Below are positions 18,675 through 38,518 of a stretch of 48,255 nt of DNA, one piece after another; within the stretch, counting starts at the first letter, position 1; every line of letters starts with the position of its first letter. A program made the position numbers and the translations under genes. The stretch is from Acidilobaceae archaeon (lineage in GTDB: Archaea; Thermoproteota; Thermoprotei_A; Sulfolobales; Acidilobaceae), in contig JALWEI010000010.1 of the NCBI GenBank assembly GCA_027014125.1, positions 1 to 48,255 on the forward strand, written 5' to 3'. The notes below the pieces were generated by a model. The model made no database searches. It saw nothing but the letters and a program-made list of their open reading frames with translations, and had not been told where the DNA came from.

Positions 18675-18762
18675 GCGGGGGTGCCCGAGCCTGGTCAAAG
18701 GGGTCGGGCTTAGGACCCGATGGCGTAGGCCTGCGTGGGTTCAAATCCCACCCCCCGCACCA
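18675..18762 (+). tRNA. tRNA-Leu(TAG), target of the 9-kb element
   Basis: The acceptor stem GCGGGGG (18675-18681) pairs with CCCCCGC (18752-18758), with A and encoded CCA after it. The anticodon stem TCGGG/CCCGA encloses loop CTTAGGA, so the anticodon is TAG. A long variable arm (TGGCGTAGGCCTGC) is typical of tRNA-Leu. No intron. The 3' 60 bases from 18703 are shared with the distal attachment site, so the element's copy supplies the 3' half and the gene stays functional. Confidence 0.95.
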
Positions 18763-18763
18763 C
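18703..18763 (+). repeat. Left attachment site (61-bp direct repeat)
   Basis: These 61 bases, from the anticodon stem of tRNA-Leu to one base past CCA, occur again without change at 27754-27814. Bases on both outer sides differ, which fixes the repeat edges. This is the attL of an element that uses the tRNA 3' half as its crossover site. Confidence 0.95.
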
Positions 18764-18987
18764 GGGAAATCCTTCCCGTCCCCTGACTCATTCTTGTACA
18801 ACTCTAGGATTTTCCTGAGGCTGAGGTGTAGTAGTACCCTCTTACGTTTTGATTCTGGATTGTATTCTTCTATTACCAGATAGTAGTATGTTTTATCTCC
18901 CTGCTTAACCTTTTTAACGAAGATGTACATGTTGAAGCCCTGTCTTGAAGCCTTATAGCCCAGGCACTCTAATACATCGCTAGGCAT
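18703..18987 (-). pseudogene. N-terminal fragment of SSV-type integrase (intN)
   Basis: From ATG 18987, with GGTGGTGATACC just upstream, the frame reads a beta-rich domain (FNMYIFVKKVKQGDKTYYYLVIEEY) and then runs into the attachment site, which is translated as CGGWDLNPRRPTPSGPKPD. Beyond 18703 the frame reads only host tRNA sequence. In SSV-type integrases attP lies inside the gene, so integration cuts it into intN at one end and intC at the other; the right-hand part lies at 26956-27753. The same N-terminal domain, about half identical, is seen at 27815-28017. Confidence 0.85.
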
Positions 18988-19060
18988 GGTATCACCACCA
19001 TGAACCCATTAGGGGCTTCAAAAAATCCATGAACACGGCTTCAAAACCCGTGTTGAAGCC
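18932..19060. repeat. Five copies of GGCTTCAA/TTGAAGCC
   Basis: TTGAAGCC is at 18932-18939, 18945-18952 and 19053-19060; the inverse GGCTTCAA is at 19014-19021 and 19037-19044. The last two sites form an inverted repeat with eight bases between them. The cluster covers the intN start and its promoter. A related GCTTCAAAA occurs in the integrase near the right attachment site (27687-27695), so these could be integrase arm sites, iterons or a repressor's sites. Confidence 0.6.
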
Positions 19061-19701
19061 TATACACACTCGGGCCCCGAGACCACAATGTCCCAGCACC
19101 TACGCCTGGGCCTAGGAAACCTGGTTATGAAGATGTTTCCTAGCCAATTGAAGAGGGCCCAGTGTGATGTGGGCATAGTCCTGTAGACGTCATAGTAGTC
19201 CCACAGACTCTCCAGCTTAAAGCTCCATCTAAGCTGCTCTATCTCCTCTGGGTCGGCTAGGCTAGTCAGTATCTTGCTATGGCTCTGCCTAATGAAGGGC
19301 AGGGTTGCTCTCGAGTAGTGCATTATAGTGACTACAACCCAGCGTTTAACGCTTGGGTTGGCATGTCTTATCTTGGCTAGGCGGTGGAGAAACTCCCTAT
19401 CTCCTCTGCTCAGGCTAAATGATATATCATCTATAACAATGTAAGCATAATATGCGTCGAGGCTCTCGAGCGTCTCCCAGAACACGTCTATCTTCTCCCT
19501 TTCAAATTGGAAGTAAACGGAGACTACACCCCGCTTAGCGCGGCCCCAGCGATACCTTGAGTAGAGGTAGCGAGCTAGGGTTGTCTTGCCGCTTCCCATA
19601 GTTCCTACTATTGATATCTGATGTAGCGGTTTAACCCATACTAGCTTAGGCGGAGCAGTATCCTCGAGTATTGTAGCCTGCTCCAAACCGTATCCACCCA
19701 T
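19060..19701 (-). CDS. P-loop ATPase, viral packaging (A32/FtsK-HerA-like) type
   Basis: Walker A is GTMGSGKT (33-40), and the Walker B strand YIVIDD (87-92) is followed by serine-rich SFSLSRGD. The distal pattern AKIRHANPSVKRWVVVTIMHYSRATLPFIRQSHSKIL places a polar sensor strand and a histidine after Walker B, as in A32-like genome-packaging and related ATPases of archaeal viruses. At 213 residues it is a single domain. It probably pumps DNA into virions or, less likely, acts in replication. It is the last gene of a minus-strand run that starts at the RHH gene (20527). Confidence 0.65.
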   Translation of the reverse strand: MGGYGLEQATILEDTAPPKLVWVKPLHQISIVGTMGSGKTTLARYLYSRYRWGRAKRGVVSVYFQFEREKIDVFWETLESLDAYYAYIVIDDISFSLSRGDREFLHRLAKIRHANPSVKRWVVVTIMHYSRATLPFIRQSHSKILTSLADPEEIEQLRWSFKLESLWDYYDVYRTMPTSHWALFNWLGNIFITRFPRPRRRCWDIVVSGPECV

Positions 19702-19710
19702 AATATTATG

Positions 19711-20043
19711 TTACTGGTTCTTACTCCGCCTGCCTAGCGGCAGGAATTTAGTACGGGTGCCCTGCTCCTCGACATAGTTCACCTGGGCCGAAATCTTGGC
19801 CACCTTCTCCACGTTCCTTTGGGCTACGGTCTCGTACCTTGCAGCCTCTATTACGCTCAGCCTAACCCAGTCCTGAACTAGCTTCCCGAGACCTAGCTCC
19901 ACGCCATAGCGCCTAGTAATATAGTCGTTGACGGCTATGATGCTTGCCAGTTGTGCAGCGCTCCAGATCTGCCCCTTGTCCCGCAGGTAGCTTAGGAGTT
20001 CGTGGACGGCATACCCGTAGTCCCCAGTAGGCCCCGAGCTCAT
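19711..20043 (-). CDS. Hypothetical helical protein of provirus (110 aa)
   Basis: ATG 20043 is preceded by GGTGGTGCTT, the same signal seen at several starts of this element. The product is soluble and mostly helical (YAVHELLSYLRDKGQIWSAAQLASIIAVNDYITRRYG), with a basic tail (FLPLGRRSKNQ). No family is recognised. It lies 9 bases upstream of the packaging-type ATPase gene and may be its partner. Confidence 0.55.
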   Translation of the reverse strand: MSSGPTGDYGYAVHELLSYLRDKGQIWSAAQLASIIAVNDYITRRYGVELGLGKLVQDWVRLSVIEAARYETVAQRNVEKVAKISAQVNYVEEQGTRTKFLPLGRRSKNQ

Positions 20044-20052
20044 AAGCACCAC

Positions 20053-20364
20053 CTAGCCTGGGGGCGGGGGCAGGCTGGGCCCCGATACTATTCCTGTCTT
20101 AGCGGCGATGACTATGCCAAGCCCGAGACCAGCCATAGCCCCAAACACAAAGAGTAGTAACCACTGCCACCAGACGGGCGGGCGCTCGTTTGCTGCCCTG
20201 ATTGCATTAACCAGTGTAGCCTGTAGGGCATCCTCTACGTCCTCTTTTACCTTATCGATAAACGACTTGCGGCAGTTTGGCCTCTCCAGGCAGGCATTAG
20301 CCAGCTCCTCGTCCTTGGCGTCTATTACCCGTACCTTCTCCTTGCACTCTTTAACCACTGTCAT
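20053..20364 (-). CDS. Tail-anchored membrane protein of provirus (about 104 aa)
   Basis: A charged helical N-terminus (ECKEKVRVIDAKDEELANACLERPNCRKSFIDK) leads to an amphipathic stretch and a single C-terminal membrane helix (WWQWLLLFVFGAMAGLGLGIVIAA), ending in proline-rich PSLPPPPG. Two cysteines flank ERPN. The start is ATG 20364, inside the end of the RHH gene, so translation is coupled. Function unknown; a virion or membrane scaffold role is possible. Confidence 0.55.
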   Translation of the reverse strand: MTVVKECKEKVRVIDAKDEELANACLERPNCRKSFIDKVKEDVEDALQATLVNAIRAANERPPVWWQWLLLFVFGAMAGLGLGIVIAAKTGIVSGPSLPPPPG

Positions 20365-20527
20365 CACCTAGGGCCCAGTCCCATAGTATTAGTAGTATGG
20401 TGTCTTGGTAGGTTGTGCCCCACCTCTTGCTCAGCTCGTCTATGTACTTGAAGAGGCCGCGGGGGATACGTATAGTGAGCTGGGTGTACGAGTCTGACTT
20501 TGCATTACCCAGACTCCACCACCCCAT
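20351..20527 (-). CDS. Ribbon-helix-helix DNA-binding protein (58 aa)
   Basis: A short frame from ATG 20527 (GGGGTG directly upstream) to TAA 20351. The sequence SYTQLTIRIPRGLFKYIDELSKRWG followed by TTYQDTILLILWDWAL has the beta strand (TQLTIRIP), helix, turn and second helix of RHH repressors such as those of fuselloviruses. It is first in the leftward operon and divergent from the structural genes, the usual place for an element's repressor. Its 3' end overlaps the next gene by 14 bases. Confidence 0.7.
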   Translation of the reverse strand: MGWWSLGNAKSDSYTQLTIRIPRGLFKYIDELSKRWGTTYQDTILLILWDWALGDDSG

Positions 20528-20595
20528 CACCCCGAATCTATACTATATTGATTCTGATTCAGTAGATATATATGTATTTATGATGTATATATTGT
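20528..20595. promoter_or_regulatory. Divergent promoter region of provirus
   Basis: This AT-rich spacer separates the RHH gene (leftward) from the membrane-protein operon (rightward). GATATATATGTATTTA (20563-20578) can serve as a TATA box in both directions. GAATC (20534-20538) and GATTC (20550-20554) form an inverted repeat with 11 bases between, a possible operator for the RHH protein. Assignment is by position only. Confidence 0.45.
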
Positions 20596-20886
20596 ATGTG
20601 TGATACCATGCCGAGGTACAGGCGCAGGAGAGGCCATAGGATGACTATAGAGAAATACCTCAGGGACTTTGCCTTTGGTGGTATGATCCTAGTGCTTAGC
20701 ACAACAATAATAATCCTGGGTGGCTATGCTGGCCAGGCCATCTCCCCCTACGCAACCTTCAACGTGACAATAGGCAGCAACACCATAACCATAGACCTAG
20801 GAATAGTGCCAGTACTGGTAACTGGTATCGGTGGTGTACTGCTCTTCATCTACGGGTGGAGGAAGATAGCCAGGGCCAGGATATAG
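20596..20886 (+). CDS. Two-helix membrane protein, provirus structural candidate (96 aa)
   Basis: A very basic N-terminus (MPRYRRRRGHR) is followed by two hydrophobic helices (GGMILVLSTTIIILGGYAG and GIVPVLVTGIGGVLLFIYGW) with a beta-like outside loop (YATFNVTIGSNTITIDL), ending RKIARARI. Short two-helix proteins with basic ends are the usual coat proteins of spindle-shaped archaeal viruses. ATG 20596 would be nearly leaderless; ATG 20608 follows GTGATACC and may be the true start. Confidence 0.55.
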   Translation: MCDTMPRYRRRRGHRMTIEKYLRDFAFGGMILVLSTTIIILGGYAGQAISPYATFNVTIGSNTITIDLGIVPVLVTGIGGVLLFIYGWRKIARARI

Positions 20887-20969
20887 AGTATATACAATCC
20901 TAAACTATACATATAAGCATATACTTTTCTTTCCTTATACATACTATACAGATAAGTATAGGTGGGAGT

Positions 20970-21206
20970 ATGGGTTGGCAGGACGCGATGGCGAGCAGCT
21001 GGCTAGGTCTCATGATCAGGGGCATAGTCAAGATAGCGCTAGCGGCTGTTATAGCTGCAATGCTGGGCGGCGTAAATATGAACCTATCCAGCGTGTCTAT
21101 AGGCGGCGTGACCGTGGACCTAAGCATTATATGGGATACAATCAGAGTCTTCGCCCCGCTACTCCTAGTCATATCAGGTCTACGGGACTTGGGTGTTAGG
21201 CTATGA
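20970..21206 (+). CDS. Two-helix membrane protein, possible VP1/VP3-like coat protein (78 aa)
   Basis: GGTGGGAGT lies right before ATG 20970, a strong translation signal, and TATA-like CTTATACATAC sits at 20933-20943. The protein has a first amphipathic/hydrophobic helix (LGLMIRGIVKIALAAVIAAML), a short loop (NMNLSSVSIGGVTVDLS) and a second helix (FAPLLLVISGL). Strong expression and size fit a major coat protein, but homology is not shown. Its stop overlaps the next start as ATGA. Confidence 0.55.
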   Translation: MGWQDAMASSWLGLMIRGIVKIALAAVIAAMLGGVNMNLSSVSIGGVTVDLSIIWDTIRVFAPLLLVISGLRDLGVRL

Positions 21207-21499
21207 GGCGTAGCGTAGCAGCTAGGCTTAGGGGGCTGGCCATAGCAATAATCCTGCTCTTCTCCTACTACTTGTTCCTCTTCGACGTGGCTATGGCAGT
21301 GAAGGACAGCATGGTGTCGTGGCTTCAGGATAGCGGCATGACCACCGTTGAGTTCAACCTGCGAGAGTACAACGCTACGAGCGGAGAGTGGGAACCCCGC
21401 CCCTACCAGCTAGACCTAGCTGGACTACTAGACCTAGCCATGACCCTAGCGATCGTGCTAGCCCCACTACTCATCATAGCCTGGTACATGTGGCCATGA
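21203..21499 (+). CDS. Two-helix membrane protein of provirus (98 aa)
   Basis: An N-terminal membrane helix (GLAIAIILLFSYYLFLFDVAMA) precedes a 45-residue polar loop that should lie outside (FNLREYNATSGEWEPRPYQ) and a C-terminal helix (AMTLAIVLAPLLIIAWYMWP). It overlaps both neighbours by ATGA junctions, so the three genes 20970-23310 are translated as a unit. Probably a virion membrane component. Confidence 0.55.
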   Translation: MRRSVAARLRGLAIAIILLFSYYLFLFDVAMAVKDSMVSWLQDSGMTTVEFNLREYNATSGEWEPRPYQLDLAGLLDLAMTLAIVLAPLLIIAWYMWP

Positions 21500-23310
21500 G
21501 GTGGGTACGGATGGACTGGGGGCGGGCCCTCGCAGCCATAATCATATCAATAATAGTGAACGTGCAGCTGGTGGCCGCTGGCCTGTGGCCTCCGCTGGAG
21601 CTTCAAACTGAGCTAGCACAGCTCAGCCCGCCCCCACCAGGCTCGTGGATATATGATTACTTCACACAAGAGCAGCTAGATTTCATCCTGGAGAATTGGA
21701 ACAGCGACAAGAAGTGGGTGATAGTCGACAAGAAGGGCGGTATGTGGAGTGTTGGACAGGGCGAGATACCCCCTCTAGTCGCCTACGCAATACAGGTTTA
21801 CAACAGCAACCTGGCTAATGCGATTGTCGACTACATAGCCGTACTACACAACCTAGAGATGAGGTGGACCTTCGGGCATGGAGGCTATAGCGTATACCCC
21901 GCTTGGGGAGCCTGGCTCAAGCCAGCCTCCAGCCAGGTGCAATACATAAATATCGAGAATCCTCGAGGAGGCCTAGGTAGCCCCTTCTATAGCGGCTACG
22001 CAAAGGCGTACTGTGGCAGTTGGAGAAGAGTCGGGTTGCAGCAGACCTTCGGGATTGTATTCATTACTGTATACAATAACGGACTAGAAATCGACGCGGC
22101 CTACACTTGGAACGGTAGCCACGAGCTGTGCTTCCCAGTAGATCCAGGCCAGGGCGTACTAGTGAGACTCCGCTTCTGGCACAACCTGAACGATATAGCC
22201 TCCCTGCCGAACAGTGTATACAACTATAATTATATCATAAATAAGCTTACGTTCATAAAGTACAACAGCTCCACAGGGAAGTATGACGAGTTGTCGAGTT
22301 CCTACGAGCTCAGAAGTGTGACGAATAATGGTAACGAGGTTGAATTCGAGTTCATACTGTATAATAACTCGACTAAGAGGGCACCCATGATACTGTTTAG
22401 GCTGGGTCTGGTAGCCAATATATGGTACTCGCATGAAGCGCCAAGCGGGGGCGACATCATATATAGGATAAGGATAGAGAACCCGCCTCCCTGGGAGCAG
22501 AACAACACTCAACCAGAGACTTGCATAGTGGATAGGAGCCCGCGCGGCCCCCCTATTGCCTTGGCAGGCCTGATAGGGGGTGGGGGTGGCCAGGAGGCCC
22601 AGTGGGTAATCCATGAGAACCCCTTTAATCCATATTGGGGAGTAAATAATACCGATCCAGATCTTGACAGGTACTACCATGTTAGCATTGGCTGGGCTTG
22701 GAGCACCCTGGAGCCGCAGAACTGTAGCCTTATCCTTAGGAGCAAGATAGAGACGCTTGACCTGGGCGAGTACAGCTGGGACTGGAACTACCTGATGGGG
22801 AACGTGAGCGTTGACGCTATGCTATACGACACGCAGCTCCCGCCCCAGCCTGGCAGCTACTACTTCGTATGGATTAATGTGTTCGATCATAATAAGACTA
22901 GTAGGGACATTATAGTGAAGTATTATAATGTTACTATAGGGCAGGGGAGCGGGAGCGACAATCCGATAGTCAGGGCGCTCAGGAACGCCTTCCGCCCAGT
23001 CGTATCGGCCATAAAGAGCGCCCTGGTCGGGGCATTAAACTTCGCCTGGGACCTGCTCCCTAGGGAATTCCAGGACCTATTGGTATTTCTAGGGAGCTTC
23101 CTCAAGGATATAATAGTGGGATTGGTTAATGCCATACTCCAGTTTCCTCTTGTGCTGGAGATACTGAAGTTGCTTGTGGTCCTCTTCCCAGCGGTAGTCA
23201 TAGCAATAATGGTGTATGACCCCTTCATGGTTATAGACTTGATACGTAAGCTCATAAGTCTGATAAGCCAGGTGATACAGGCGATAAGGTCAGCGCTACC
23301 CCTACCCTAG
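21496..23310 (+). CDS. Large spike-like membrane glycoprotein of provirus (604 aa)
   Basis: ATG 21496 overlaps the upstream stop (ATGA). Features in order: signal/membrane helix at residues 8-28, a roughly 470-residue outside domain rich in Asn, Tyr and Trp with about ten N-glycosylation sequons, a glycine-rich hydrophobic patch (IALAGLIGGGGG), then a C-terminal region of amphipathic and hydrophobic helices (residues 505-600, including LEILKLLVVLFPAVVIAIMV). This plan resembles the large end-spike protein VP4 of fuselloviruses, which binds host structures. I infer attachment; no sequence family is recognised. Confidence 0.6.
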   Translation: MRWVRMDWGRALAAIIISIIVNVQLVAAGLWPPLELQTELAQLSPPPPGSWIYDYFTQEQLDFILENWNSDKKWVIVDKKGGMWSVGQGEIPPLVAYAIQVYNSNLANAIVDYIAVLHNLEMRWTFGHGGYSVYPAWGAWLKPASSQVQYINIENPRGGLGSPFYSGYAKAYCGSWRRVGLQQTFGIVFITVYNNGLEIDAAYTWNGSHELCFPVDPGQGVLVRLRFWHNLNDIASLPNSVYNYNYIINKLTFIKYNSSTGKYDELSSSYELRSVTNNGNEVEFEFILYNNSTKRAPMILFRLGLVANIWYSHEAPSGGDIIYRIRIENPPPWEQNNTQPETCIVDRSPRGPPIALAGLIGGGGGQEAQWVIHENPFNPYWGVNNTDPDLDRYYHVSIGWAWSTLEPQNCSLILRSKIETLDLGEYSWDWNYLMGNVSVDAMLYDTQLPPQPGSYYFVWINVFDHNKTSRDIIVKYYNVTIGQGSGSDNPIVRALRNAFRPVVSAIKSALVGALNFAWDLLPREFQDLLVFLGSFLKDIIVGLVNAILQFPLVLEILKLLVVLFPAVVIAIMVYDPFMVIDLIRKLISLISQVIQAIRSALPLP

Positions 23311-23768
23311 GGGCCGAATATGGTTATGAATGTGTGCTGCCCCTCACCCGTTTTTATCCTGACTATAGCTTGGTCCCCTGGTCTCGGCTCCCTCTCTACT
23401 ATTATCCTAATATTATTCTCTCCCTCGCTGAGCTGCCCACTCCACTCGCCGCCAAAGTAGTCCACGGTTATAGTAGCGTTGCACGGCCTCTCGGCCCACA
23501 CTGTGAGCGTTACGGCCCGCTTGCCTGCCGACGCAGTCCCGTGCACATTACTTATACATGGCTCTGGGCTGGCCGCGGTCGCATTGGTACTTGTTGCCTG
23601 CCTAGTAGTATTGGTAACATTCTGGGAGACGCTCTGGCTGGTTGTATCAGCCTCTTGCTGCTCCTGTACCTGCTGGCTTGCTGGCTGCTCTGCCTGCTGC
23701 AACATGTAGTAGGCGCCCGCCAGGCTCAGGACTATGATAGCGAACGCTAGGGCATACTTTACTGGCAT
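23307..23768 (-). CDS. Anchored extracellular protein with Gln/Thr linker (153 aa)
   Basis: A minus-strand TATA box CTTATAAAG at 23803-23811 puts the transcript start near 23780, so ATG 23768 is chosen over TTG 23792. The product has a membrane helix (YALAFAIIVLSLAGAYYMLQ), a Gln/Ser/Thr linker (QQVQEQQEADTTSQSVSQN) and a C-terminal Ig-like domain with two cysteines (PCISNVHGTASAGKRAVTLT; WAERPCNATITVDYFGG). It overlaps the end of the spike gene by 4 bases tail-to-tail. It may be a second surface protein. Confidence 0.55.
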   Translation of the reverse strand: MPVKYALAFAIIVLSLAGAYYMLQQAEQPASQQVQEQQEADTTSQSVSQNVTNTTRQATSTNATAASPEPCISNVHGTASAGKRAVTLTVWAERPCNATITVDYFGGEWSGQLSEGENNIRIIVEREPRPGDQAIVRIKTGEGQHTFITIFGP

Positions 23769-23851
23769 AACATTGCACCCGACCGCGATCAATGCTAGGG
23801 GACTTTATAAGCATTTCACCATTGAAATCGGCTTAACCCCGTCCTGCTACA

Positions 23852-23881
23852 CCCAACCCCCGCCACCAGGCGGGGGTTGGG
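23852..23881. repeat. Perfect 13-bp hairpin before a start codon
   Basis: Bases 23852-23864 pair fully with 23869-23881 around loop ACCA. The right arm holds GGCGGGGGTT, the only Shine-Dalgarno-like sequence for GTG 23884, which begins three bases after the stem. In RNA the hairpin would hide that site. In DNA it is a GC-rich palindrome between divergent genes and could be an origin or protein-binding site. Confidence 0.7.
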
Positions 23882-23883
23882 CC

Positions 23884-24147
23884 GTGCAGTTGGAGGAGCG
23901 CCTAGCCAGGCTCGAGAGGATCCTAGAAGCAATGCTAGCCAGGCCAGTGCACGTACACGTATCACTACCCGAGAAGAGGGACTGTGCCAAGGCCCAGCTG
24001 GTGGTGCTTATGGACTACCTGCTGGGCAGGATACGGGATGCTGCTAGGCGGGGCGACTGGGGTGAGGCCCTTAGGACAGTGGAGGAGGTCAGGGAACGGA
24101 TATACTACTACGGCCTAGAAGAACTCCAAAAAGAGCTAGGACTCTAG
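23884..24147 (+). CDS. Coiled-coil protein of provirus (87 aa)
   Basis: GTG 23884 is chosen because the frame upstream runs through the hairpin and promoter region. The sequence starts with a heptad-patterned helix (QLEERLARLERILEAML), has a short strand (HVHVSLPEKRD) and ends in helices (AQLVVLMDYLLGRIRDAARRGDWGEALRTVEEVRERIYYY). It probably forms a dimer or trimer. No family is known to me. It converges with the winged-helix gene by 12 bases. Confidence 0.55.
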   Translation: MQLEERLARLERILEAMLARPVHVHVSLPEKRDCAKAQLVVLMDYLLGRIRDAARRGDWGEALRTVEEVRERIYYYGLEELQKELGL

Positions 24148-24402
24148 CAGCTCCCTTATTTTTACTATATACTCCCTGACCTGCCGACCCTTCTCCGTTA
24201 GCTTCAGGAGTCTACGGGCTGGCGGCTGCCTTTCCCGCCACGTCTCTATAAGGCCCAGGCTCTCAAGTAGCTTAATCCTGTTGTAGAGGGTCTGCCTGTT
24301 AAGCCCCAGCCCCTGTTGCACCTCTAAGAGTTCATACTCCCTGCCAGGTTGCATAAAGACTAGAATATCCGCCGCTCCGTTACAGAACTCCACACTACCC
24401 AC
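24136..24402 (-). CDS. Winged-helix regulator of provirus (about 88 aa)
   Basis: The recognition part is REYELLEVQQGLGLNRQTLYNRIKLLESLGLIETW, followed by a wing RRLLKLTEKGRQVREYIVKI, a MarR/PadR-like DNA-binding domain. A TATA-like CTATTATAATTTT around 24428-24440 suggests a start near 24411, so GTG 24402 (GSVEFCNG) fits better than longer alternatives. It is divergent from the gene at 24493 and is likely to control that promoter. Confidence 0.7.
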   Translation of the reverse strand: MGSVEFCNGAADILVFMQPGREYELLEVQQGLGLNRQTLYNRIKLLESLGLIETWRERQPPARRLLKLTEKGRQVREYIVKIRELLES

Positions 24403-24492
24403 CGTGTAGTCATTGGGAGCGAAAATTATAATAGGATAGATAGTTATTAATCCTAACAACTGGACATCTAAACATCTAGATAGGTGGTGTAT
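24403..24492. promoter_or_regulatory. Divergent promoter with CATCTAGATA leader motif
   Basis: AGTTATTAATCC (24441-24452) is a plausible rightward TATA box. ATCTAAA then ACATCTAGATA (24470-24480) come directly before the GGTGGT translation signal of the next gene. The same pair (ATCTAAA... ACATCTGGATA) lies before GGTGGT at 25373-25404. This shared arrangement suggests one regulator for both operons. Confidence 0.45.
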
Positions 24493-24951
24493 ATGATGGA
24501 TGAGCCTACAACGGCGGGTTTCAAGGAGGTGGATGTTTACAAACGTTTACAAACACGGTTAGGAGAAGTATGGGGCAGGCGGGATATAACACAACCGATC
24601 AGCTTCAGGATACCACTCTACATAAAGATGATATATGACTCTCTCGATGCAGAGAGCAAACGCAGGATACGCCTCGGGCTAGAGCAACTTATACTCGCAA
24701 TAGCTGGCCTAGATCCACACCCCAACCCAACTCAGCCTATTATAATAAATATGAATATGAATATCAACGAGAACAGGAATGAATTCAGACTAGAGATCTC
24801 CCAAGAACTTATGAAAAAGCTTGATGATCTTCTAGGGCTACTGGAGTTTATTGCATTCCAATCCACATATCCTGAGAACATTAAGAGGCGTGCTGAGCTT
24901 GGTTACCGTGCCCTGAGACAACTCAAGAAGCTCCTGGTTGATATGAATTAG
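24493..24951 (+). CDS. Hypothetical protein of provirus (152 aa)
   Basis: ATG 24493 is set by GGTGGT five bases upstream. The protein has an N-terminal polar part, a possible ribbon-helix-helix-like segment (PISFRIPLYIKMIYDSLDAESKRRIRLGLEQLILAI), an Asn-rich linker (INMNMNINENRNE) and a C-terminal helical pair (ISQELMKKLDDLLGLLEFIAF). DNA binding is possible but not shown. The gene is much richer in A and T than those of the host. Confidence 0.5.
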   Translation: MMDEPTTAGFKEVDVYKRLQTRLGEVWGRRDITQPISFRIPLYIKMIYDSLDAESKRRIRLGLEQLILAIAGLDPHPNPTQPIIINMNMNINENRNEFRLEISQELMKKLDDLLGLLEFIAFQSTYPENIKRRAELGYRALRQLKKLLVDMN

Positions 24952-24960
24952 GTGGTGTGT

Positions 24961-25170
24961 ATGAGTGTGGTTGGGTATTTCTGGCGGTGGGCAGGCTTCT
25001 GGGCTGGTTTCATATCTGGGTTCCTAGCCCACAGAATGTATTATAGCCTGGACCCGCCTTGGCTGCGGACAGTGCTAGCCGCTGGGATAATACTCATGTT
25101 TATTATTTCAGGTATTCCTCTAACCCGAGCCCGTAGAAAAGCAAAGTCAGGCCGAATAGGAATGTTATAA
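24961..25170 (+). CDS. Small two-helix membrane protein (69 aa)
   Basis: GGTGGTGTGT right before ATG 24961 fixes the start. Two membrane helices (YFWRWAGFWAGFISGFLA and TVLAAGIILMFIISGIPL) and a basic tail (RARRKAKSGR) are seen. Its end overlaps the opposite-strand gene by 68 bases. Function unknown. Confidence 0.5.
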   Translation: MSVVGYFWRWAGFWAGFISGFLAHRMYYSLDPPWLRTVLAAGIILMFIISGIPLTRARRKAKSGRIGML

Positions 25171-25303
25171 TTATTGTAATGCCGCCCCACGGGTTTAGGG
25201 CTTCATCCAATCCTATCCTGTTCAGTAGACCAGCTATGATTATGAGGCCTAGGCCTAGTATGAATGCCTTAGTCCTCTCCTTTATCACGGCTATCAGACC
25301 CAT
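25103..25303 (-). CDS. Small two-helix membrane protein (66 aa)
   Basis: AGGAGGTGCGACC precedes ATG 25303, one of the best ribosome-binding sites in the window, so this is a real gene despite its tail overlap with the previous one. Two hydrophobic helices (AFILGLGLIIIAGLLNRIGL and ITIIITFLFGLTLLFYGLGL) make up most of it. Possibly a minor virion or holin-like protein; nothing decides this. Confidence 0.5.
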   Translation of the reverse strand: MGLIAVIKERTKAFILGLGLIIIAGLLNRIGLDEALNPWGGITIIITFLFGLTLLFYGLGLEEYLK

Positions 25304-25414
25304 GGTCGCACCTCCTGACTGGATTTCTAGGCTTCTAGACGGAAAAACTTATTAGGTCTCATTAGTATAGATATCTAAATGACCAGACATCTGGATATAT
25401 GAGAGGTGGTGTGT

Positions 25415-25657
25415 GTGGGTAGGGTTAAGGTTGGACTGGTGCTCCCGAGCGTCTTGGATCGTAGGGTTGAACTGGTGGCCGCTGCCAGTGGTATGAGTAA
25501 GAGTGAGGTTGTCGAGGCGGCGCTGGTGCTGCTGCTGGCCCTGATAGAGCATGGTGTACCAGACGACCTAGCCTACCTGTTGGCAAACACCAGGACAGAG
25601 CTGCTGGAGAAGCTACAGAGGATGCAGCAGGAGGCATCTCCATACATCAAAGCCTAG
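25415..25657 (+). CDS. Ribbon-helix-helix-like DNA-binding protein (80 aa)
   Basis: By analogy with other starts here, GAGAGGTGGT leads to GTG 25415. The segment RVKVGLVLPSVLDRRVELVAAASGMSKSEVVEAALVLLLAL has the strand, helix A, turn and helix B of RHH proteins. A further 30-residue helical tail follows. It begins a six-gene rightward operon (25415-26959) and probably regulates it through the leader motif at 25373-25398. Confidence 0.65.
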   Translation: MGRVKVGLVLPSVLDRRVELVAAASGMSKSEVVEAALVLLLALIEHGVPDDLAYLLANTRTELLEKLQRMQQEASPYIKA

Positions 25658-25671
25658 AGGGGGTGACCGTG

Positions 25672-25941
25672 GTGGCTGTGCAGAGGCTAGTGGATGACAT
25701 GATTAAACATAAAGTGATAAACGAGGATCAGCGTGAGCTGGCGGAGTTCATACTAGAATACATGGAGAAGGGGAGAGAAGCTGTCAACACACAGGAAAGA
25801 GAGCAGTGGTTCAATACAATCAAAAAGAATAGGTGCATAGACGAGCAGGGCAGGCTCATAGCAGATGGCGACATAGATACATTCCAGGTTCTACTATGGA
25901 TGCTCTGTGCTGAAGGTATAATAGCAAGGTATGAGGGGTGA
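25672..25941 (+). CDS. Hypothetical acidic helical protein (89 aa)
   Basis: GTG 25663, 25669 and 25672 are all possible; GGGGGTGA spaces best to 25672. The product is helical and soluble (RLVDDMIKHKVINEDQRELAEFILEYMEK), with a C-terminal WMLCAEGIIARYEG. It is the second gene of the operon, and its stop overlaps the next frame. No family recognised. Confidence 0.5.
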   Translation: MAVQRLVDDMIKHKVINEDQRELAEFILEYMEKGREAVNTQEREQWFNTIKKNRCIDEQGRLIADGDIDTFQVLLWMLCAEGIIARYEG

Positions 25942-25946
25942 TCAGG

Positions 25947-26288
25947 GTGGCTGAGCCTAGGTATGTCGAGAGGCTGGATAGCCTGGCGCTGGCTAGGCTA
26001 CTCAGGCAGGCCAGGGCCGAGGACGGGAGCCTAGTGCTGCCAGAGGAGCTCGGCGAGGTGGACATGAGGCGCCTGATCCTGCTATACTGGCGTGATGTAC
26101 TTGCAAGGCTCGGAATACACGTGCTAGGCGAGGCCGACGCTATAGTAGAGGAGAGGCTAGACTCAGGGGCCAGGTACAGGATACACACGGCAACCCTAAC
26201 CATAACAATAGAGGTAGTCGGGCCAGAGCTCTACGCCTACACCGACCCCAGAGCCACCATAGTCATCCACAGGAACACATGCACCTAG
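25947..26288 (+). CDS. Hypothetical protein of provirus (113 aa)
   Basis: GGGGTGATCAG spaces well to GTG 25947 (GTG 25938 is the longer choice and overlaps the previous stop as GTGA). An arginine/leucine-rich helical half (RLDSLALARLLRQARAEDG) is followed by a half made of strands (RYRIHTATLTITIEVVGPELYAYTDPRATIVIH). The mix suggests a small alpha/beta protein. Function unknown. Confidence 0.5.
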   Translation: MAEPRYVERLDSLALARLLRQARAEDGSLVLPEELGEVDMRRLILLYWRDVLARLGIHVLGEADAIVEERLDSGARYRIHTATLTITIEVVGPELYAYTDPRATIVIHRNTCT

Positions 26289-26485
26289 CCCTGGGGGATC
26301 CAAGGGTGCTGGCGTACCCATCCTGCATAAAACGGCTCATACAGGCCCTCGGCTACGGCAACACAACCCTCCCAGACCTACCACAGGCGGCCAGGGAGTG
26401 CATAGTCAACGCATGCAGAGAGTACGCCGCTGGCGAGAAGACACTATCCAAGGCTATCAGGACCTGCATGGGGGCCACGGGATGA
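26279..26485 (+). CDS. Hypothetical small cysteine-containing protein (68 aa)
   Basis: ATG 26279 lies inside the end of the previous gene (10-base overlap), and the stop overlaps the next start as ATGA. Four cysteines (SCIKR, ECIVNACRE, TCMGATG) in a short helical protein could bind a metal. No recognisable family. Confidence 0.45.
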   Translation: MHLALGDPRVLAYPSCIKRLIQALGYGNTTLPDLPQAARECIVNACREYAAGEKTLSKAIRTCMGATG

Positions 26486-26835
26486 AGCTAGAGGAGCTTT
26501 CTCCCTCAGAGTACAGGACCCTGGTCCTGGTCTATAGGTACGTCTACAGGGACGGCAGGCAGTCGAGGTGCTTCACCTACCAGGGCCTCCGCTCCTGGGT
26601 ACACTACTCGCTGCCGAAGGCCGAGAGGCCCGAGTGGCACACCATAGAGCGGGCGATACGCAGCCTAGCCGAGAGGCAGGTCCTCAAGAGGATAAGGCGG
26701 GGAAGACTAGTCATATTCTGCCCAGGCCAATACTGGCACAGGCTACTAGACCAGTACAGGAGCCAGCTAAGAAACACAGAGCTCCCCGAAGCCAGCCCCT
26801 ACAGGCAGCTACTCGAATACCTGGATACGGGGTGA
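26482..26835 (+). CDS. Winged-helix-like protein of provirus (117 aa)
   Basis: ATG 26482 overlaps the previous stop (ATGA). The order helix (SPSEYRTLVLVYRYVYRDG), helix (TYQGLRSWVHYSLPKAERPEWHTIERAIRSLAERQVL) and wing (RIRRGRLVIFCPG) fits a winged helix with the recognition helix at TIERAIRSLAERQ. A basic surface supports DNA binding, perhaps as a replication initiator or late regulator. Confidence 0.55.
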   Translation: MKLEELSPSEYRTLVLVYRYVYRDGRQSRCFTYQGLRSWVHYSLPKAERPEWHTIERAIRSLAERQVLKRIRRGRLVIFCPGQYWHRLLDQYRSQLRNTELPEASPYRQLLEYLDTG

Positions 26836-26839
26836 TACC

Positions 26840-26959
26840 GTGGAGTGGTGGGAGTGGCTCTTCCTAACGGTAATCGTGGCGATAGCCTCTAGGGCAAACA
26901 TAACGATAATGGTTAGACGGCAGGAGTGCAGGCACAACCAGGCTATATGCTACCCCTAA
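26840..26959 (+). CDS. Very small membrane peptide (39 aa)
   Basis: GTG 26840 follows GGGGTGATACC, the same signal as for neighbouring genes, and the frame runs to TAA 26957-26959. The peptide WWEWLFLTVIVAIASRANI has one membrane helix, and the tail (RRQECRHNQAICYP) holds two cysteines. It closes the rightward operon and overlaps the end of the integrase gene by 4 bases tail-to-tail. Support is by signal and position only. Confidence 0.45.
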   Translation: MEWWEWLFLTVIVAIASRANITIMVRRQECRHNQAICYP

Positions 26960-28017
26960 CCCAGCCACCCCCTGAGCCAGGCTGCATACTTCCCATACTC
27001 CTTATCCGCTACTACCAGCCTATCCGCATAGTGCTTTCTTAGCACGCTAGAGGGTACTCGGCCCTGGATGAAGTCCACGGCTATCTCGCTTACCCCTGCT
27101 AGCAGCATCTTAGTCGTAACCCATTTCCTTATGTATTTGAAGGGGGTTAGCCTTAGTGCCGCCCTTGCCTCTTGCAGCTCCTCTAGGTCCACGGGCATTG
27201 GGTTGGGGGGCTCTAGCAGGTAGGCCCAGAGGGCCCTCTTGCTCCCCCTAGTCCAGAGTATGGGGCACCTGTAGTAGCCCCCTAGGTCCACGCACTCCCT
27301 AGGCTCCCCTAGCAGCTTAGCAGCTTCCACCGCCCTGAGGCCTGACTGCACTAGTATAAGGTAGAAGTAGCCTAGGGATCCAGGGGCTCCTAGTGCCTGC
27401 CTTACCTCGCTGTCGCTGGGTATATACAGGTCGGCGCTGCTCCTCTTGCTCTTCACACGCTTAAACTCCTCGCAGGCCTTAGCGAGACCCTTCTCCTCGC
27501 AGAGCCACCTGGCTAGGCGCTTGTAGGCGGTCACGTGCCACCTCGAGGCGTCTATAGGCCTCTCCCCTGTATCTATCTCCTGTATCTTACGGAGATACTG
27601 TTGGCAGGTCTCCCCCGAGCTCCTAGCCCTGCACCACTCGAGGAACTCTCCTAGCAGCCTTTGCGAAAGGGCTATGCCCAACCTTTGCTTCAAAACTCCT
27701 AGGCTCTGGCTATGGTTTGGTGGGCCTCGGGGTTGAGGGGCGGAAGCCCCCAAGTCGGGCTTAGGACCCGATGGCGTAGGCCTGCGTGGGTTCAAATCCC
27801 ACCCCCCGCACCACTTGAGGGGCTCCGCCCCCTCAACCCCTAGTTTATCCAAGTTCTTGAGTAGCTTCTGGATGGAGAGTTGCAGGACCGGCCTTCTCCT
27901 ACCATTACCGAGGTACTCCTCTATTACGAGGTAGTAGTAGGTTCTGCCGCCAGCCCTCACCCTCTTAATGTAAACGTACAAGTTGCAGTCGCCCAGTTGA
28001 GAACTAGCAGAAACCAC
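26956..28017 (-). CDS. SSV-type tyrosine integrase, intact across the attachment site
   Basis: The 353-codon frame from GTG 28017 has three parts: an N-terminal beta domain (LYVYIKRVRAGGRTYYYLVIEEY), the attachment site translated as WCGGWDLNPRRPTPSGPKPD, and a catalytic domain. In the last, QSGLRAVEAAKLL gives the first arginine, YIRKWVTT the middle basic box, and FIQGRVPSSVLRKHYADRL the final box with the tyrosine nucleophile. The part right of the site (27815-28017) is outside the 9-kb element, so the gene joins intC of one element to intN of another, or is an undisturbed gene of a second element. Confidence 0.88.
   Translation of the reverse strand: MVSASSQLGDCNLYVYIKRVRAGGRTYYYLVIEEYLGNGRRRPVLQLSIQKLLKNLDKLGVEGAEPLKWCGGWDLNPRRPTPSGPKPDLGASAPQPRGPPNHSQSLGVLKQRLGIALSQRLLGEFLEWCRARSSGETCQQYLRKIQEIDTGERPIDASRWHVTAYKRLARWLCEEKGLAKACEEFKRVKSKRSSADLYIPSDSEVRQALGAPGSLGYFYLILVQSGLRAVEAAKLLGEPRECVDLGGYYRCPILWTRGSKRALWAYLLEPPNPMPVDLEELQEARAALRLTPFKYIRKWVTTKMLLAGVSEIAVDFIQGRVPSSVLRKHYADRLVVADKEYGKYAAWLRGWLG
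27729..27840. repeat. Imperfect 22-bp inverted repeat flanking the right attachment site
   Basis: Bases 27729-27750 (GGGGTTGAGGGGCGGAAGCC...) and 27819-27840 (...CCCCCTCAACCCC) are inverted copies with only a one-base gap shift, three bases outside the 61-bp site on the left and four on the right. Nothing like it flanks the left site, where CGGGAA-ATCC-TTCCCG is found. Symmetric arms of this kind could bind integrase and suggest that both flanks came from one attP. Confidence 0.65.
27754..27814 (+). repeat. Right attachment site (61-bp copy of tRNA-Leu 3' half)
   Basis: Identical over 61 bases with 18703-18763. The tRNA 5' half is missing here, so it is not a working gene. It closes the 9.05-kb element and is read through in frame by the integrase gene. 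Confidence 0.95.
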
Positions 28018-28197
28018 ACCAGCTAAATCTCAACCATAGTGACTATGTTATAGCTCCGCTCGCGATAAAATTCAGTATTTCATAGTCTAGTATGAATTAA
28101 CTAATAGAGTATATGCCATTATATCGTAAAGGACCTCTGCATGATTCTTACAGTGTATATCTTGAGTAGTACTAGCCATGACTAGATCTCTCCTACA
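28018..28197. other. AT-rich spacer without gene
   Basis: 180 bases, strongly AT-rich against the host. A leftward TATA-like AATTTTATCG (28063-28072) could drive the integrase gene. Otherwise I see only scattered TATA-like words and no frame, tRNA or clear repeat. Confidence 0.4.
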
Positions 28198-28602
28198 TTA
28201 AATCTCGTGCACTTTTAAAGCCGTCATTCTTTTACGCACCTCCTCCGCTAACTCCTTAACTGGTCTCCCATCCCTAAGAGAGAACTTAGATTGCCCATAG
28301 TAGACAGTAACAACAAATCTATTACGCCATCCATAAGTCGCAATGGCAAGACCTACCAGAAACACGACTATGGCTATATCACTAGCCCCTGTTCCAATTT
28401 CGCTCGATAACATTGGTATAACGAATGACACTATTACTAACATTACGCCTAGAATGACCATAAACCAGGACTCTGTTAACTCTACAGCGTACACATGGAA
28501 CAGGTCTATATCCAACCGCCAACCCGGCCTCTCCAACGTCAAAAAATTATCCGTTACCCTAACTTCAAGATCCCTAACACGCTTAACCCACTCACTGCCC
28601 AT
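28198..28602 (-). CDS. Membrane protein with two central helices (134 aa)
   Basis: GGGGGTGGT precedes ATG 28602. The N-terminal 45 residues are strands (RVRDLEVRVTDNFLTLERPGWRLDIDLFHVYAVEL), then come helices WFMVILGVMLVIVSFVIPML and IAIVVFLVGLAIATYGW, then a strand-rich tail (RFVVTVYYGQSKFSLRDG). The layout resembles PH-domain-like YcxB/DUF304 membrane proteins, but I am not sure. Low GC and position next to the lone intN suggest it belongs to a second element. Confidence 0.5.
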   Translation of the reverse strand: MGSEWVKRVRDLEVRVTDNFLTLERPGWRLDIDLFHVYAVELTESWFMVILGVMLVIVSFVIPMLSSEIGTGASDIAIVVFLVGLAIATYGWRNRFVVTVYYGQSKFSLRDGRPVKELAEEVRKRMTALKVHEI

Positions 28603-28619
28603 TACAAACCACCCCCAAT

Positions 28620-29375
28620 CTAGCGTGGAGGAGGTTCAGGAGCAGGACAGAGGTAATAGTATACAGCTGTTACGCTGACACTAACTGGTTCCACCGAGTA
28701 TCGATTCTCCACTGCTAATGCCAGAAACATTACACTGTCTCTTTGTGAAGTAAATACAGGCACCCAGAGGGTACCAGTATTCTGCCCCGTGGAAACTGCA
28801 AAAGATGATAGCTCGGCATTACTATAGGGTATATTGTAGCTTATCGTAAATATTACACCGTCTGGACTGTTGTAGTCTATTACAACCACACCAGGCGATT
28901 TTATATCACCTAGACCTAATAATACGGTGTCCCAGACCTCGCTATACCCGAGATTTATAGTCCTATCCAATAGAGATCTACTGCACCATTGTGGCTGTTG
29001 TGTTTCTGTTACCGTCTGGGTTTTGGTGGCTGTTGTTGTCACCGTGGTGGTTACCGGGGTGGTGGTTGTTATGGTTACTGTGGCCTGTGGCAGGGTCTCG
29101 GTTTTAGTCACAGTGCGGGTCGCTTCCTGTGTTGTTGTCACGGTTAGGGTAGAGGTGCTGGTAATAGTGCTGAACATGGTCTCAGTCTCGGTCACTGTAG
29201 TAGCCACACTGGTGGTCGTAGGGCTAACTGTAACTATCGTAACAGTCTCTGTCTCGACAGGCACAAACCCCAGCCGGGGCCCCCACCACACACTAAACAC
29301 AAGCCCAGCCACAAAGAACATACCAGCAACAACCAAAACCCCAAACCGTCCCCCAACCTCACTCAAAAACACCAC
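28620..29375 (-). CDS. Surface protein with threonine-rich stalk (251 aa)
   Basis: An N-terminal membrane helix (FGVLVVAGMFFVAGLVFSVWW) is followed by about 90 residues of Thr/Val/Ser repeats (TVTETET, TTTPVTTTVTTTATK), surely extended and likely O-glycosylated, and then a globular beta domain (residues 135-245) with cysteines at both ends (WCSRS, YYLCPAP). Archaeal cell-surface adhesins and some virus proteins look like this. GTG 29375 or TTG 29366 is the start after GGGGTGGT. Function unknown. Confidence 0.6.
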   Translation of the reverse strand: MVFLSEVGGRFGVLVVAGMFFVAGLVFSVWWGPRLGFVPVETETVTIVTVSPTTTSVATTVTETETMFSTITSTSTLTVTTTQEATRTVTKTETLPQATVTITTTTPVTTTVTTTATKTQTVTETQQPQWCSRSLLDRTINLGYSEVWDTVLLGLGDIKSPGVVVIDYNSPDGVIFTISYNIPYSNAELSSFAVSTGQNTGTLWVPVFTSQRDSVMFLALAVENRYSVEPVSVSVTAVYYYLCPAPEPPPR

Positions 29376-29630
29376 CCCATCTAGGATACTAGCGCTGAAC
29401 CAAGCATGACAACGGCTACACTCAATAAATTCACTATATAAGCAACTTTTATAAGCCTAAACTCGTCTAACATGCTTCCTCTATATAATTATCACATCAT
29501 AGCCTTTATTTAAGATTTTTGCTAATTCTATAATACTAAATGTTTTACTTATTTGCTCATTATGTGCAGTGTGCCGCGTGAGACCAACTATTTAGGTAGA
29601 TTAGTTTTAGATAATCTGGGGGTTTTATTG
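29376..29630. promoter_or_regulatory. AT-rich intergenic region with leftward promoter
   Basis: CTATATAAGC (29434-29443) and CTTTTATAAGC (29445-29455) provide leftward TATA boxes for the stalk-protein gene. The rest, up to the tRNA-Gly fragment, is AT-rich with no frame; I see no RNA gene there. Confidence 0.4.
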
Positions 29631-29681
29631 TGGTGCGGCCGCCGGGATTTGAACCCGGGACCACCGGCTTGGAAGGCCGGC
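29631..29681 (-). repeat. 3' fragment of tRNA-Gly(TCC), attachment site of the large element
   Basis: Read on the minus strand, the sequence runs from anticodon stem CCGGC through loop CTTCCAA (anticodon TCC), stem GCCGG, a complete T-arm (GGTTCAAATCC), the 3' acceptor strand CGGCCGC, A and CCA. The matching 5' acceptor strand and D-arm are missing: past 29681 the sequence is unrelated. This is what integration into a tRNA 3' half leaves at the distal end. The intact tRNA-Gly should lie beyond the right edge of the window. Confidence 0.85.
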
Positions 29682-29766
29682 CGGATTCAATGATATAATT
29701 GGGTCTAATCCTGGGCCCAGTGGTGTACCCTTTTTATCCCATAAATGGGGTTAATTGGATCCATGA

Positions 29767-30006
29767 GTGGCTGCTACTGGGTCCAGGATTGGGGTGAGAG
29801 GAGTGGCTAGGAGGCCTAGGAGCCCAGAGGAGATAGTGGAGAGAGCACTAGCCCAGACGGTTACTGTAAAGCGTAAGTACGGAGACTACGTCAGCGTCGA
29901 CATTCCCGCCAGGTTCGCCAGGGCCCTCGGCCTCAAGCCTGGGGATGTGCTTCTTGCCAGGCTCGATCCGGTCAGGAAGCGTATAATATTTGAGGTCGTC
30001 GAGTAG
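29767..30006 (+). CDS. AbrB-family DNA-binding protein (79 aa)
   Basis: The C-terminal half TVTVKRKYGDYVSVDIPARFARALGLKPGDVLLARLDPVRKRIIFEVV is a swapped-hairpin AbrB/SpoVT domain, preceded by a basic arm (RGVARRPRSPEEIVERAL). GTG 29767 is close to the start predicted from TTTTTATCC (29730-29738); GTG 29803 has a better ribosome site (GGTGAGAGGA). It likely regulates the element's integrase: its last 159 bases are antisense to the integrase 3' end. Confidence 0.75.
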   Translation: MAATGSRIGVRGVARRPRSPEEIVERALAQTVTVKRKYGDYVSVDIPARFARALGLKPGDVLLARLDPVRKRIIFEVVE

Positions 30007-30765
30007 CCTCCTAAGCCCTATCCCCTCGTCCAGGAACCTATGGGCTAGGGGCCATACAAGCCTAGACGCCCTGACGGCGGCGTACTTATAGTCCTCGTAG
30101 TGGGCTATATCGGTGGGCCTCCACCGGCCCTGGATAAACCCGCAGAGCTGCCTATCCCCTGTGGCTGCTATACAAAGGTTCCAGTGGATCTTCCTCGCGC
30201 AGCTCAACGGAGCCCTTCTCCTGGCAGCAGTATCCCTGAGTCTACTGTAGGAGTATGAAGAGAGTACATGGTGCAGCCTAGGCGCTGTCTCCTCCGGGTC
30301 TAACACTATTATGTTAACCCTCTTAGTCCCAGTCGTAACCCGCACATCCCAGACCAGCGCCCCATCAACCTCCTCTGGCCGGATCCTCGTGATCCTCCAG
30401 AGGTGCTTTGCCCTAACCCCGCTCTCCAGCAAGCCCCTCCAAACCCAGTACACAGGGCCCTCAAGCGGATTCAGACTTTCCGGGCACCTGCCTATCCCCT
30501 CACCCCGGCGCCCTATAAACGGGCTGCACGCCTGCCTCCGCAGCCGGAGCTCCGCCTTCTTAGCGGCGTATGTCGTGAAGTCTATAGCACCATGATACAG
30601 GAGATACTCTATATAGTTCCCCACAAGCTTTAGCAACCAACTATTACAAGGCAGCCTAGCCAGATCTAGGCTACTCAATGCCTCCCTATACCTTTCATAA
30701 TACCTAGCATAATCTCCAATACTATACGGAGCCTTGACCCGCAGCCACTCTATAAACCCATCCAT
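29848..30765 (-). CDS. Tyrosine recombinase/integrase of the large element
   Basis: In the 305-residue protein, LLESGVRAKHLWRI gives the first catalytic arginine, CARKIHWNLCIAAT the middle box, and FIQGRWRPTDIAHYEDYKYA the final box with the tyrosine nucleophile. The RKxH, FIQGR and HY spacing mirrors that of the other integrase at 26956-28017, so they are distant relatives. Unlike that one, no attachment site lies inside the gene, so it stays whole after integration, as in pNOB8-type plasmids. The catalytic tyrosine lies before the AbrB overlap, so the overlap covers only the tail. Confidence 0.8.
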   Translation of the reverse strand: MDGFIEWLRVKAPYSIGDYARYYERYREALSSLDLARLPCNSWLLKLVGNYIEYLLYHGAIDFTTYAAKKAELRLRRQACSPFIGRRGEGIGRCPESLNPLEGPVYWVWRGLLESGVRAKHLWRITRIRPEEVDGALVWDVRVTTGTKRVNIIVLDPEETAPRLHHVLSSYSYSRLRDTAARRRAPLSCARKIHWNLCIAATGDRQLCGFIQGRWRPTDIAHYEDYKYAAVRASRLVWPLAHRFLDEGIGLRRLLDDLKYYTLPDRIEPGKKHIPRLEAEGPGEPGGNVDADVVSVLTLYSNRLG

Positions 30766-30862
30766 GAAAACACCCCTACACCACTACATATAATAGGCAC
30801 CAGGAGACTAGGCCTTAGAGTTGTATGTACTGACACAGTATTAACTATAAGAACGGTCAGAC

Positions 30863-30878
30863 GCAACCCCCCGGTTGC
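30863..30878 (+). repeat. Dyad repeat copy 1 (GCAACC-CCCC-GGTTGC)
   Basis: Perfect dyad in the gap between integrase and winged-helix genes, followed by ACCTACCTAGG and GGCTACTCC, which also follow copy 5 at 36361. Confidence 0.85.
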
Positions 30879-30902
30879 GCCTGGAACCTACCTAGGTCCC
30901 GG

Positions 30903-31169
30903 CTACTCCTCCAGGCAAGCCTCCCTCGCACGCTCCAGCCCTTCCCGAGTGAGGCCGTAGCTCTTGGTTCCGCCCTTCCTGTAGACTAGGCCTTCTGCCT
31001 CTAGTTGTTTGAGTGCACGTTTGACTATGCCCCTCATAGCTGGGGGTAGCTTCCTCATTATCGCCTCCAGCGGGTAGTGTGCATGCGTAGTCTCACCGGT
31101 TAGCCTGTAGAGGGCGCATAGAACCCTTTCCATGTGCCTCTTTGACGGCTTGGGGGTCAAGCTGGACAC
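30903..31169 (-). CDS. Winged-helix regulator (88 aa)
   Basis: KRHMERVLCALYRLTGETTHAHYPLEAIMRKLPPAMRGIVKRALKQLEAEGLVYRKGGTKSYGLTREGLE is a winged helix, with recognition helix RGIVKRALKQLEAEG and wing KGGTKSYGLT. GTG 31169 lies just after the start predicted from CTTAAATAC (31196-31204). Three copies of ATTCTGTAAGAAT lie in its promoter, so it probably represses itself and the divergent AbrB-like gene. Confidence 0.75.
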   Translation of the reverse strand: MSSLTPKPSKRHMERVLCALYRLTGETTHAHYPLEAIMRKLPPAMRGIVKRALKQLEAEGLVYRKGGTKSYGLTREGLERAREACLEE

Positions 31170-31177
31170 CCTGGATT

Positions 31178-31237
31178 ATTCTGTAAGAACCGTGCAAGTA
31201 TTTAAGCTATTCTGTAAGAATATCATACTGTAAGAAA
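31178..31237. promoter_or_regulatory. Three operator copies ATTCT-GTA-AGAAT
   Basis: Copies lie at 31178-31189, 31209-31221 (perfect inverted repeat) and 31225-31237. Starts are 31 and 16 bases apart, about three and one and a half helix turns. They flank the leftward TATA box of the winged-helix gene and the rightward AATATAAACC (31235-31244) of the next gene. This is the typical layout of an autoregulated divergent promoter. Confidence 0.75.
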
Positions 31238-31274
31238 TATAAACCCTAGGTATCGCCTATACAGGAACCAGGGG

Positions 31275-31724
31275 GTGCAAAAAGGCTTGATAACACCCGC
31301 AATACCCCTAATAGTCAAACCATACAAGATGAAGAAGAGGCTCAAGACAGGGGAGGAGAGGGAGTACACGATATACAGGATAAACCTCCCCAAGAACCTC
31401 GCAGAAACCCTAGGCCTAGAAGACGGTGAGGACCTCATACTAGCCTACATAGCCCAGGCCAAGTGGTACCACCTCTTCGACTGGAGCAACCCTGAGGTTC
31501 TCAGGGAGGTGTTGCCGAGGCTAACCGAGAAGGAGAGGCTGGAGCTATGCGCAACACTAGCCCCCGAAAAGGTATGCGAGGGCAGGAGGCCACACATACT
31601 AGTAGCCAGCCCAGAAGAACTAAGGCAGCTAGGCCTAGACCCCGACAGGCCCCTAACCCTGGAGGACCTTGTAGAGGCGGTGAAGCGCAAGGTCCTGGCG
31701 GAGGCGCAGTCCCCCAGCACATAG
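31275..31724 (+). CDS. AbrB-like protein with C-terminal extension (149 aa)
   Basis: Residues 18-62 (KMKKRLKTGEEREYTIYRINLPKNLAETLGLEDGEDLILAY) fit an AbrB-type swapped hairpin. The C-terminal 80 residues are helical (NPEVLREVLPRLTEKERLELCATLAPEKVCEG) and unlike anything I know. GTG 31275 is almost leaderless from the TATA box at 31235. It is divergent from the winged-helix gene and followed after 11 bases by the next gene. Confidence 0.65.
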   Translation: MQKGLITPAIPLIVKPYKMKKRLKTGEEREYTIYRINLPKNLAETLGLEDGEDLILAYIAQAKWYHLFDWSNPEVLREVLPRLTEKERLELCATLAPEKVCEGRRPHILVASPEELRQLGLDPDRPLTLEDLVEAVKRKVLAEAQSPST

Positions 31725-31735
31725 TATAACACGGG

Positions 31736-38503: not shown

Positions 38504-38518
38504 CGACACGATTACCTT

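Follow-up and report, generated by a model that had tools for sequence, protein, structure and literature searches.

The closest described systems are the SSV-type integrases (SSV1 Int, APOV1 orf21), with which the locus reported here shares the PF16795 domain, an attachment (att) core that lies within the gene and equals the 3′ half of a tRNA, and the splitting of the gene into a 5′ half (intN) and a catalytic half (intC) on integration. It differs from them in that the integrated form once more contains a full-length open reading frame (ORF). It is not yet settled, for archaeal mobile elements, how those whose integrase gene is destroyed on entry persist and leave the chromosome. The answers currently given, as outlined in a review, are a second infecting element or leftover intC activity (PMC8371274). 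The same review describes intN as needed for multimerisation and intC alone as weak, and reports excision of related elements with the complete enzyme supplied in trans (PMC8371274).

Three kinds of known arrangement bear on the locus. In Sulfolobus islandicus, orphan intN fragments occur at tRNA genes (PMC3718332) and overlap them in the same way as here, but they only mark past insertions, whereas the putative fossil described below forms part of a new ORF. In Thermococcales, chimeric suicidal integrases (Badel et al., reviewed in PMC8371274) likewise unite an intN and an intC with separate histories in a single gene, through module shuffling. As far as the review describes them, two integrated elements give rise to these by homologous recombination or by inversion, whereas here site-specific insertion next to a fossil intN would produce the join, and homologous recombination would be unneeded. 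Lastly, tandem integration at one site (PMC8371274, PMC6563490) involves the same reuse of an att, although here the second element would be present as a relic only. Fossil intN (PMC3718332), tandem insertion (PMC8371274, PMC6563490) and, going by the review, chimeric suicidal integrases (PMC8371274) have thus been published separately. In the open-access papers searched, outside which the primary Thermococcales study lies, we found no description of an integrase being rebuilt by insertion beside a fossil intN.

Element A and the full-length frame at its right edge

The window, by which we mean the whole 48,255-nt stretch of DNA analysed, comes from a draft assembly of an Acidilobaceae archaeon (47 contigs, 99.8% complete), and its features are collected in Table 1. 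A previous interpretation, made from the sequence alone, had located the att sites, the intN and intC parts and the junction ORF, and all of these coordinates proved correct when re-computed. Element A measures 9.05 kb and is flanked by two identical copies of a 61-bp att core that corresponds to the tRNA from the anticodon stem to the CCA, plus one base. This repeat was found twice in the 33 kb searched, and copies with 100% identity also number two genome-wide; the other tRNA-Leu matches in the source genome are the CAG, GAG, CAA and TAA genes and the right edge of a decayed element on contig C22. ARAGORN additionally calls a second tRNA-Leu at 27727-27813, composed of the right att and intC sequence, and the stretch to the left of the right att resembles the 5′ half of a tRNA.

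Table 1. Features of the tRNA-Leu(TAG) locus and of the sequence to its right
Feature	Coordinates	Strand	Remarks
tRNA-Leu(TAG)	18675..18762	+	intact, regenerated at left edge of element A; ARAGORN
Left att copy	18703..18763	+	61 bp
intN_A, 5′ half of element A's own integrase	18764..18987	-	ATG start at 18987; A-type intN clade
Inverted repeat GCTTCAACACGGGTTTTGAAGC	19038..19059	-	upstream of intN_A
Element A body	19060..26955	.	virus- or plasmid-like
intC_A, catalytic half	26956..27753	-	PF16795; SSV1 Int structures
Rebuilt full-length integrase ORF	26956..28017	-	353 aa, GTG start, stop-free
Hairpin TTGAGGGGCGGAAGCCCC	27733..27750	+	left of right att; inverted match with 27815-27843
Right att copy	27754..27814	+	61 bp, 100% identical to left copy
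intN_B, putative fossil intN in frame with intC	27815..28017	-	no upstream inverted repeat
1.6-kb stretch	28037..29629	.	44% GC, two patchy ORFs
tRNA-Gly(TCC) 3′ half	29630..29681	-	boundary of separate right-hand element
Tyrosine recombinase, undivided	29848..30765	-	305 aa; adjoins tRNA-Gly half; 43% relative on C33

The body of element A encodes small membrane proteins, a 213-aa P-loop ATPase, a 640-aa protein and DNA-binding proteins, and its largest protein has no phage match. In the circle form, intN_A, att and intC would read in one frame (1083 nt, 360 aa), which identifies element A as a complete insertion of SSV type that carries its own gene in split form: integration has partitioned that gene into intN_A and intC_A, while the rebuilt ORF itself is unsplit. 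Separately, the 385 bp at 18675-19059, comprising the tRNA, intN_A and the upstream repeat, are 97.7% identical to C23:6071-6455 (locus L021) of the source genome. The block carries tRNA-Leu(TAG) here and tRNA-Leu(GAG) on C23, and its limit coincides exactly with the outer edge of the inverted repeat, which would suit an exchangeable cassette of intN and upstream repeat.

To the right of element A, a second and clearly different intN continues in frame through the right site into intC, as the sequence-only reading had it, giving an open ORF of 353 codons. The two intN share 34% amino acid identity. The rebuilt ORF matches Pfam PF16795 (E 4.9e-26, residues 198-346) and the catalytic domain structures of SSV1 integrase (3uxu/3vcf/4dks, E ~1e-20), and integrases of APOV1 and of fuselloviruses (SSV) align over 94-97% of it. 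Residues R228, K260, K294, R297, R320 and Y330 are all present at positions aligned to the catalytic positions of SSV1 Int; we take them to be the Arg/Lys/Arg/Arg/Tyr residues of a tyrosine recombinase. The 61-bp core provides codons of the ORF and at the same time matches the 3′ half of tRNA-Leu(TAG) exactly. By sequence, then, the product is an SSV-type (suicidal) tyrosine integrase. All integrases of this family use the att core as coding sequence, so the open frame across the right site is no coincidence. A scan of IMG/VR for free relatives carrying the undivided gene yielded none.

The second intN and the sequence to its right

Several features of intN_B are those of a relic. Relative to the intN on C22 it has a 1-nt deletion, which puts its homologous ATG (28035-28037) out of frame, and the reading frame now starts at an internal GTG at 28017. 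Upstream of intN_A lies an inverted repeat of the form GCTTCAA..TTTTGAAGC, for which 0.00 occurrences are expected by chance in the window, and the exact repeat also precedes seven other intN (C22, C23, G006, G010, G016 C8, G020 and G032). It was not found upstream of intN_B, nor upstream of the intN of G003 C155 and G044 C34. G003 C155 has lost its homologous start codon as well, by ATG to ACG, where intN_B lost it by frameshift. Because intN_B lacks both this start and the upstream repeat, normal expression of the rebuilt ORF is less likely. The relic signature is not uniform, however, since in MAG JAPDJV a match to the inverted repeat lies ~400 nt ahead of the site; moreover, G016 C7 has an intact intN yet lacks the exact repeat. 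That intN_B is open along its whole length also speaks against a fossil origin, since an old fossil need not be. Many intN loci, in addition, show a short hairpin directly 3′ of the tRNA (CGGGAAATCCTTCCCG, TTGAGGGGCTCCGCCCCCTCAA, TAGGGGCTCCGCCCCTA, TTGACGCCTTCGGCGTCAA), conserved in structure with varying letters.

We also considered that intN_B might open a second complete SSV-type element in tandem with element A, running from 27815 past the contig end, as it is a real intN at the right place and archaea are known to carry tandem arrays at a single site (as treated in PMC8371274 and PMC6563490). Such an element should bring an intN that has kept its start and the repeat upstream, both absent from intN_B, and a third att with a second intC, which do not appear in the sequence up to the contig end at 48255. 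Neither a third TAG site nor an orphan intC able to be the other end of intN_B was found in the 99.8% complete assembly, and from 29630 onward the sequence is that of another element, which has a recombinase of its own at a tRNA-Gly half. The second inserted SSV-type element that had been proposed to the right of the junction is therefore not borne out. The contig end leaves room for a distant second intC, which counts against a fossil origin of intN_B, and yet we judge two complete elements in tandem to be distinctly improbable.

The region from 29.63 kb is, on the evidence of its genes and boundary, a different, conjugation-like element at another tRNA. It carries VirB4-, TadA- and pilus-like genes, and a collinear, likewise conjugation-like relative of 29630-48255, with an undivided recombinase, ends at a tRNA-Glu half on source-genome contig C33 (L192). 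The full tRNA-Gly(TCC) gene was not found in the assembly, where the best other matches are the GCC (94%) and CCC (92%) genes. The recombinase at the boundary gave a weak, sub-threshold match to PF16795 only (E 0.006) and none to NCBIfam; it resembles pNOB8-type integrases in being undivided and adjoining a tRNA-derived att, an arrangement paralleled on C33. Given the other tRNA, the other recombinase and the collinear relative, we rejected the right-hand region from 29630 on as the body of an element B, of which at most about 1.8 kb could then remain. Within that remainder, the DNA at 28037-29625 has no match in 25 relatives. The patchy 134-aa gene at 28198-28602 has a relative in a distant genome (L191, G051), where a tRNA-Leu(GAG) gene lies ~400 bp away. 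A dispersed palindrome, CGCAACCGGGGGGTTGCG, often beside AGGTCCTA, occupies intergenic positions in the right-hand element, at 30861, 34467, 35751, 36359, 38396, 42208, 43806, 46085 and 46339.

Misassembly would offer another origin for the junction, in that the exact 61-bp repeat could have fused the right edge of element A to the tRNA-Leu(TAG)-intN_B edge of another strain, and the assembly is a 47-contig draft. Reads and k-mers are usually longer than 61 bp, though, and the same arrangement recurs in other assemblies at other anticodons, which makes an artefact very improbable, even more so than a tandem pair.

Related loci and exchange of integrase halves

We examined 14 intC-side att sites, which were chosen by match to the integrase, so that the proportions that follow are not frequencies. 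At 5/14 the site was followed by an intN that completes a full-length ORF (the window, G003 C155, G044 C34, JAPDJV and G006 C70), although the G006 C70 case, which has the inverted repeat and lies at a contig end, may be an undisturbed gene. Decayed intN remnants stood behind two sites (G028 C97, interrupted by stops, and G010 C6, where a short piece still in frame was recognised by eye), and at 7/14 there was no intN behind the site. G003 C155 is a tRNA-Leu(TAA) locus with host lipoate genes ~2 kb beyond its intN, syntenic with source-genome contig C25, while the left end of G044 C34 carries a tRNA-Leu(TAG) and a clearly distinct intN. Accordingly, the claim that two such elements in tandem always give a chimeric integrase holds in one part, as the geometry forces the join and the join recurs elsewhere, and lacks support in the other, that the partner is a second element.

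Two related genomes lack element A and have a decayed intN directly after tRNA-Leu(TAG). In one of them, the sister genome G001, the left flank of the same tRNA is 94.5% identical over 4.65 kb; the other is G003. Both loci may represent the kind of pre-insertion state that a fossil intN at our locus calls for, but the relic in G001 differs in sequence from intN_B, which counts against it. Neither genome supplied the ancestral right flank: the radical-SAM flank of G001 has no DNA match in the source genome, and the flank gene of G003 sits on source-genome contig C25.

Open intN frames were also observed behind many tRNA-Leu genes of all five anticodons (L072, L089, L021, L067, L107/L108), some of them in well-assembled genomes where no intC was found (G016 C3 and C4, source-genome C23). 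In G009 the intN at the CAG and TAG genes are 99% identical. The decayed 4.8-kb element on source-genome C22 (L020) has a left site at 6082 with anticodon CAG and a right site at 10902-10962 with GAG, which suggests integration across isoacceptors.

That the gene at the junction is composite by position is certain, but its two halves may already have been partners in the past. On that account, intN_B and intC_A would be the original gene of one element, the locus would once have been a tandem dimer or something similar, and the left intN would later have been replaced by an A-type block copied from another tRNA-Leu locus. The near-identity of 18675-19059 to the tRNA-Leu(GAG) locus on C23, with its abrupt end, would suit such a replacement, although intN_A has kept its start codon and the repeat upstream of it. 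An inverted match exists between the hairpins on either side of the right att (score 19, against 14 for the best of 5000 shuffles), but as proof of partnership this is weakened by the occurrence of the same hairpin type elsewhere in these genomes, including beside a G032 intC with a presumed A-type partner.

Phylogeny is similarly divided. Trees of intN fall into two strongly separated groups (support 1.000) and those of intC into several; intC_A clusters with its closest relatives C155 and C22, both of which have B-type intN. This clustering and the hairpin match would fit an old partnership and so weigh against a fossil partner. Yet intN_B, itself B-type, is nearest to G016 C7 (63%) and not to C155 and C22 (54/53%), so that its tree does not mirror that of intC, and apart from the att there is no trace of a dimer. 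Halves do get swapped, as two elements of G016 show with intC 94% identical in amino acids and intN 31%; their DNA is 95% identical over att and intC only (L054 3394-4248, L055 2921-3775), on unrelated backbones. With modules shuffling this often, we dropped the trees as a verdict on native pairing. Overall, a shared past of intN_B and intC_A appears unlikely, though less so than either a tandem pair or an artefact.

Probable origin and meaning of the composite frame

The explanation that we consider probable is that element A inserted beside a fossil intN, the surviving part of an earlier element of its kind, and thereby made a composite ORF. The att pair, the frames, the relic features of intN_B, the absence of a second SSV-type element from the assembly and the recurrence at other loci speak for it. 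The order of events that we infer begins with a tRNA-Leu(TAG) that would already have carried intN_B directly downstream, as a relic of an earlier SSV-type element. Element A would then have integrated into the 3′ half of this tRNA, splitting its own integrase into intN_A beside the tRNA and intC_A at the far end, and the same insertion would have joined intC_A in frame to intN_B, giving a full-length composite integrase ORF again. Because the core is coding and is read in one frame in all these genes, the join needs only site-specific insertion. If the rebuilt ORF is active, excision would split it once more, with intN_A and intC_A leaving on the circle and the fossil staying in the chromosome. 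The rebuilt ORF could thus possibly offer the trapped element A a way out.

More broadly, and as a tentative proposal that we hold to be rather doubtful, fossil intN at tRNA genes may act as a standing stock of front halves from which a landing element regains a complete, possibly active integrase. If this were true, the 'suicidal' integrase would not be suicidal at such sites, excision could proceed without a helper element, and repeated cycles would, in addition, reshuffle the two halves. Rebuilding next to a relic front half would be a cis route out of the chromosome that follows from geometry alone, with the arrangement seen in several genomes. Such rebuilding would allow a prediction of the integrated copies capable of excision, and it would be a simple source of the swapped intN/intC combinations in these elements.
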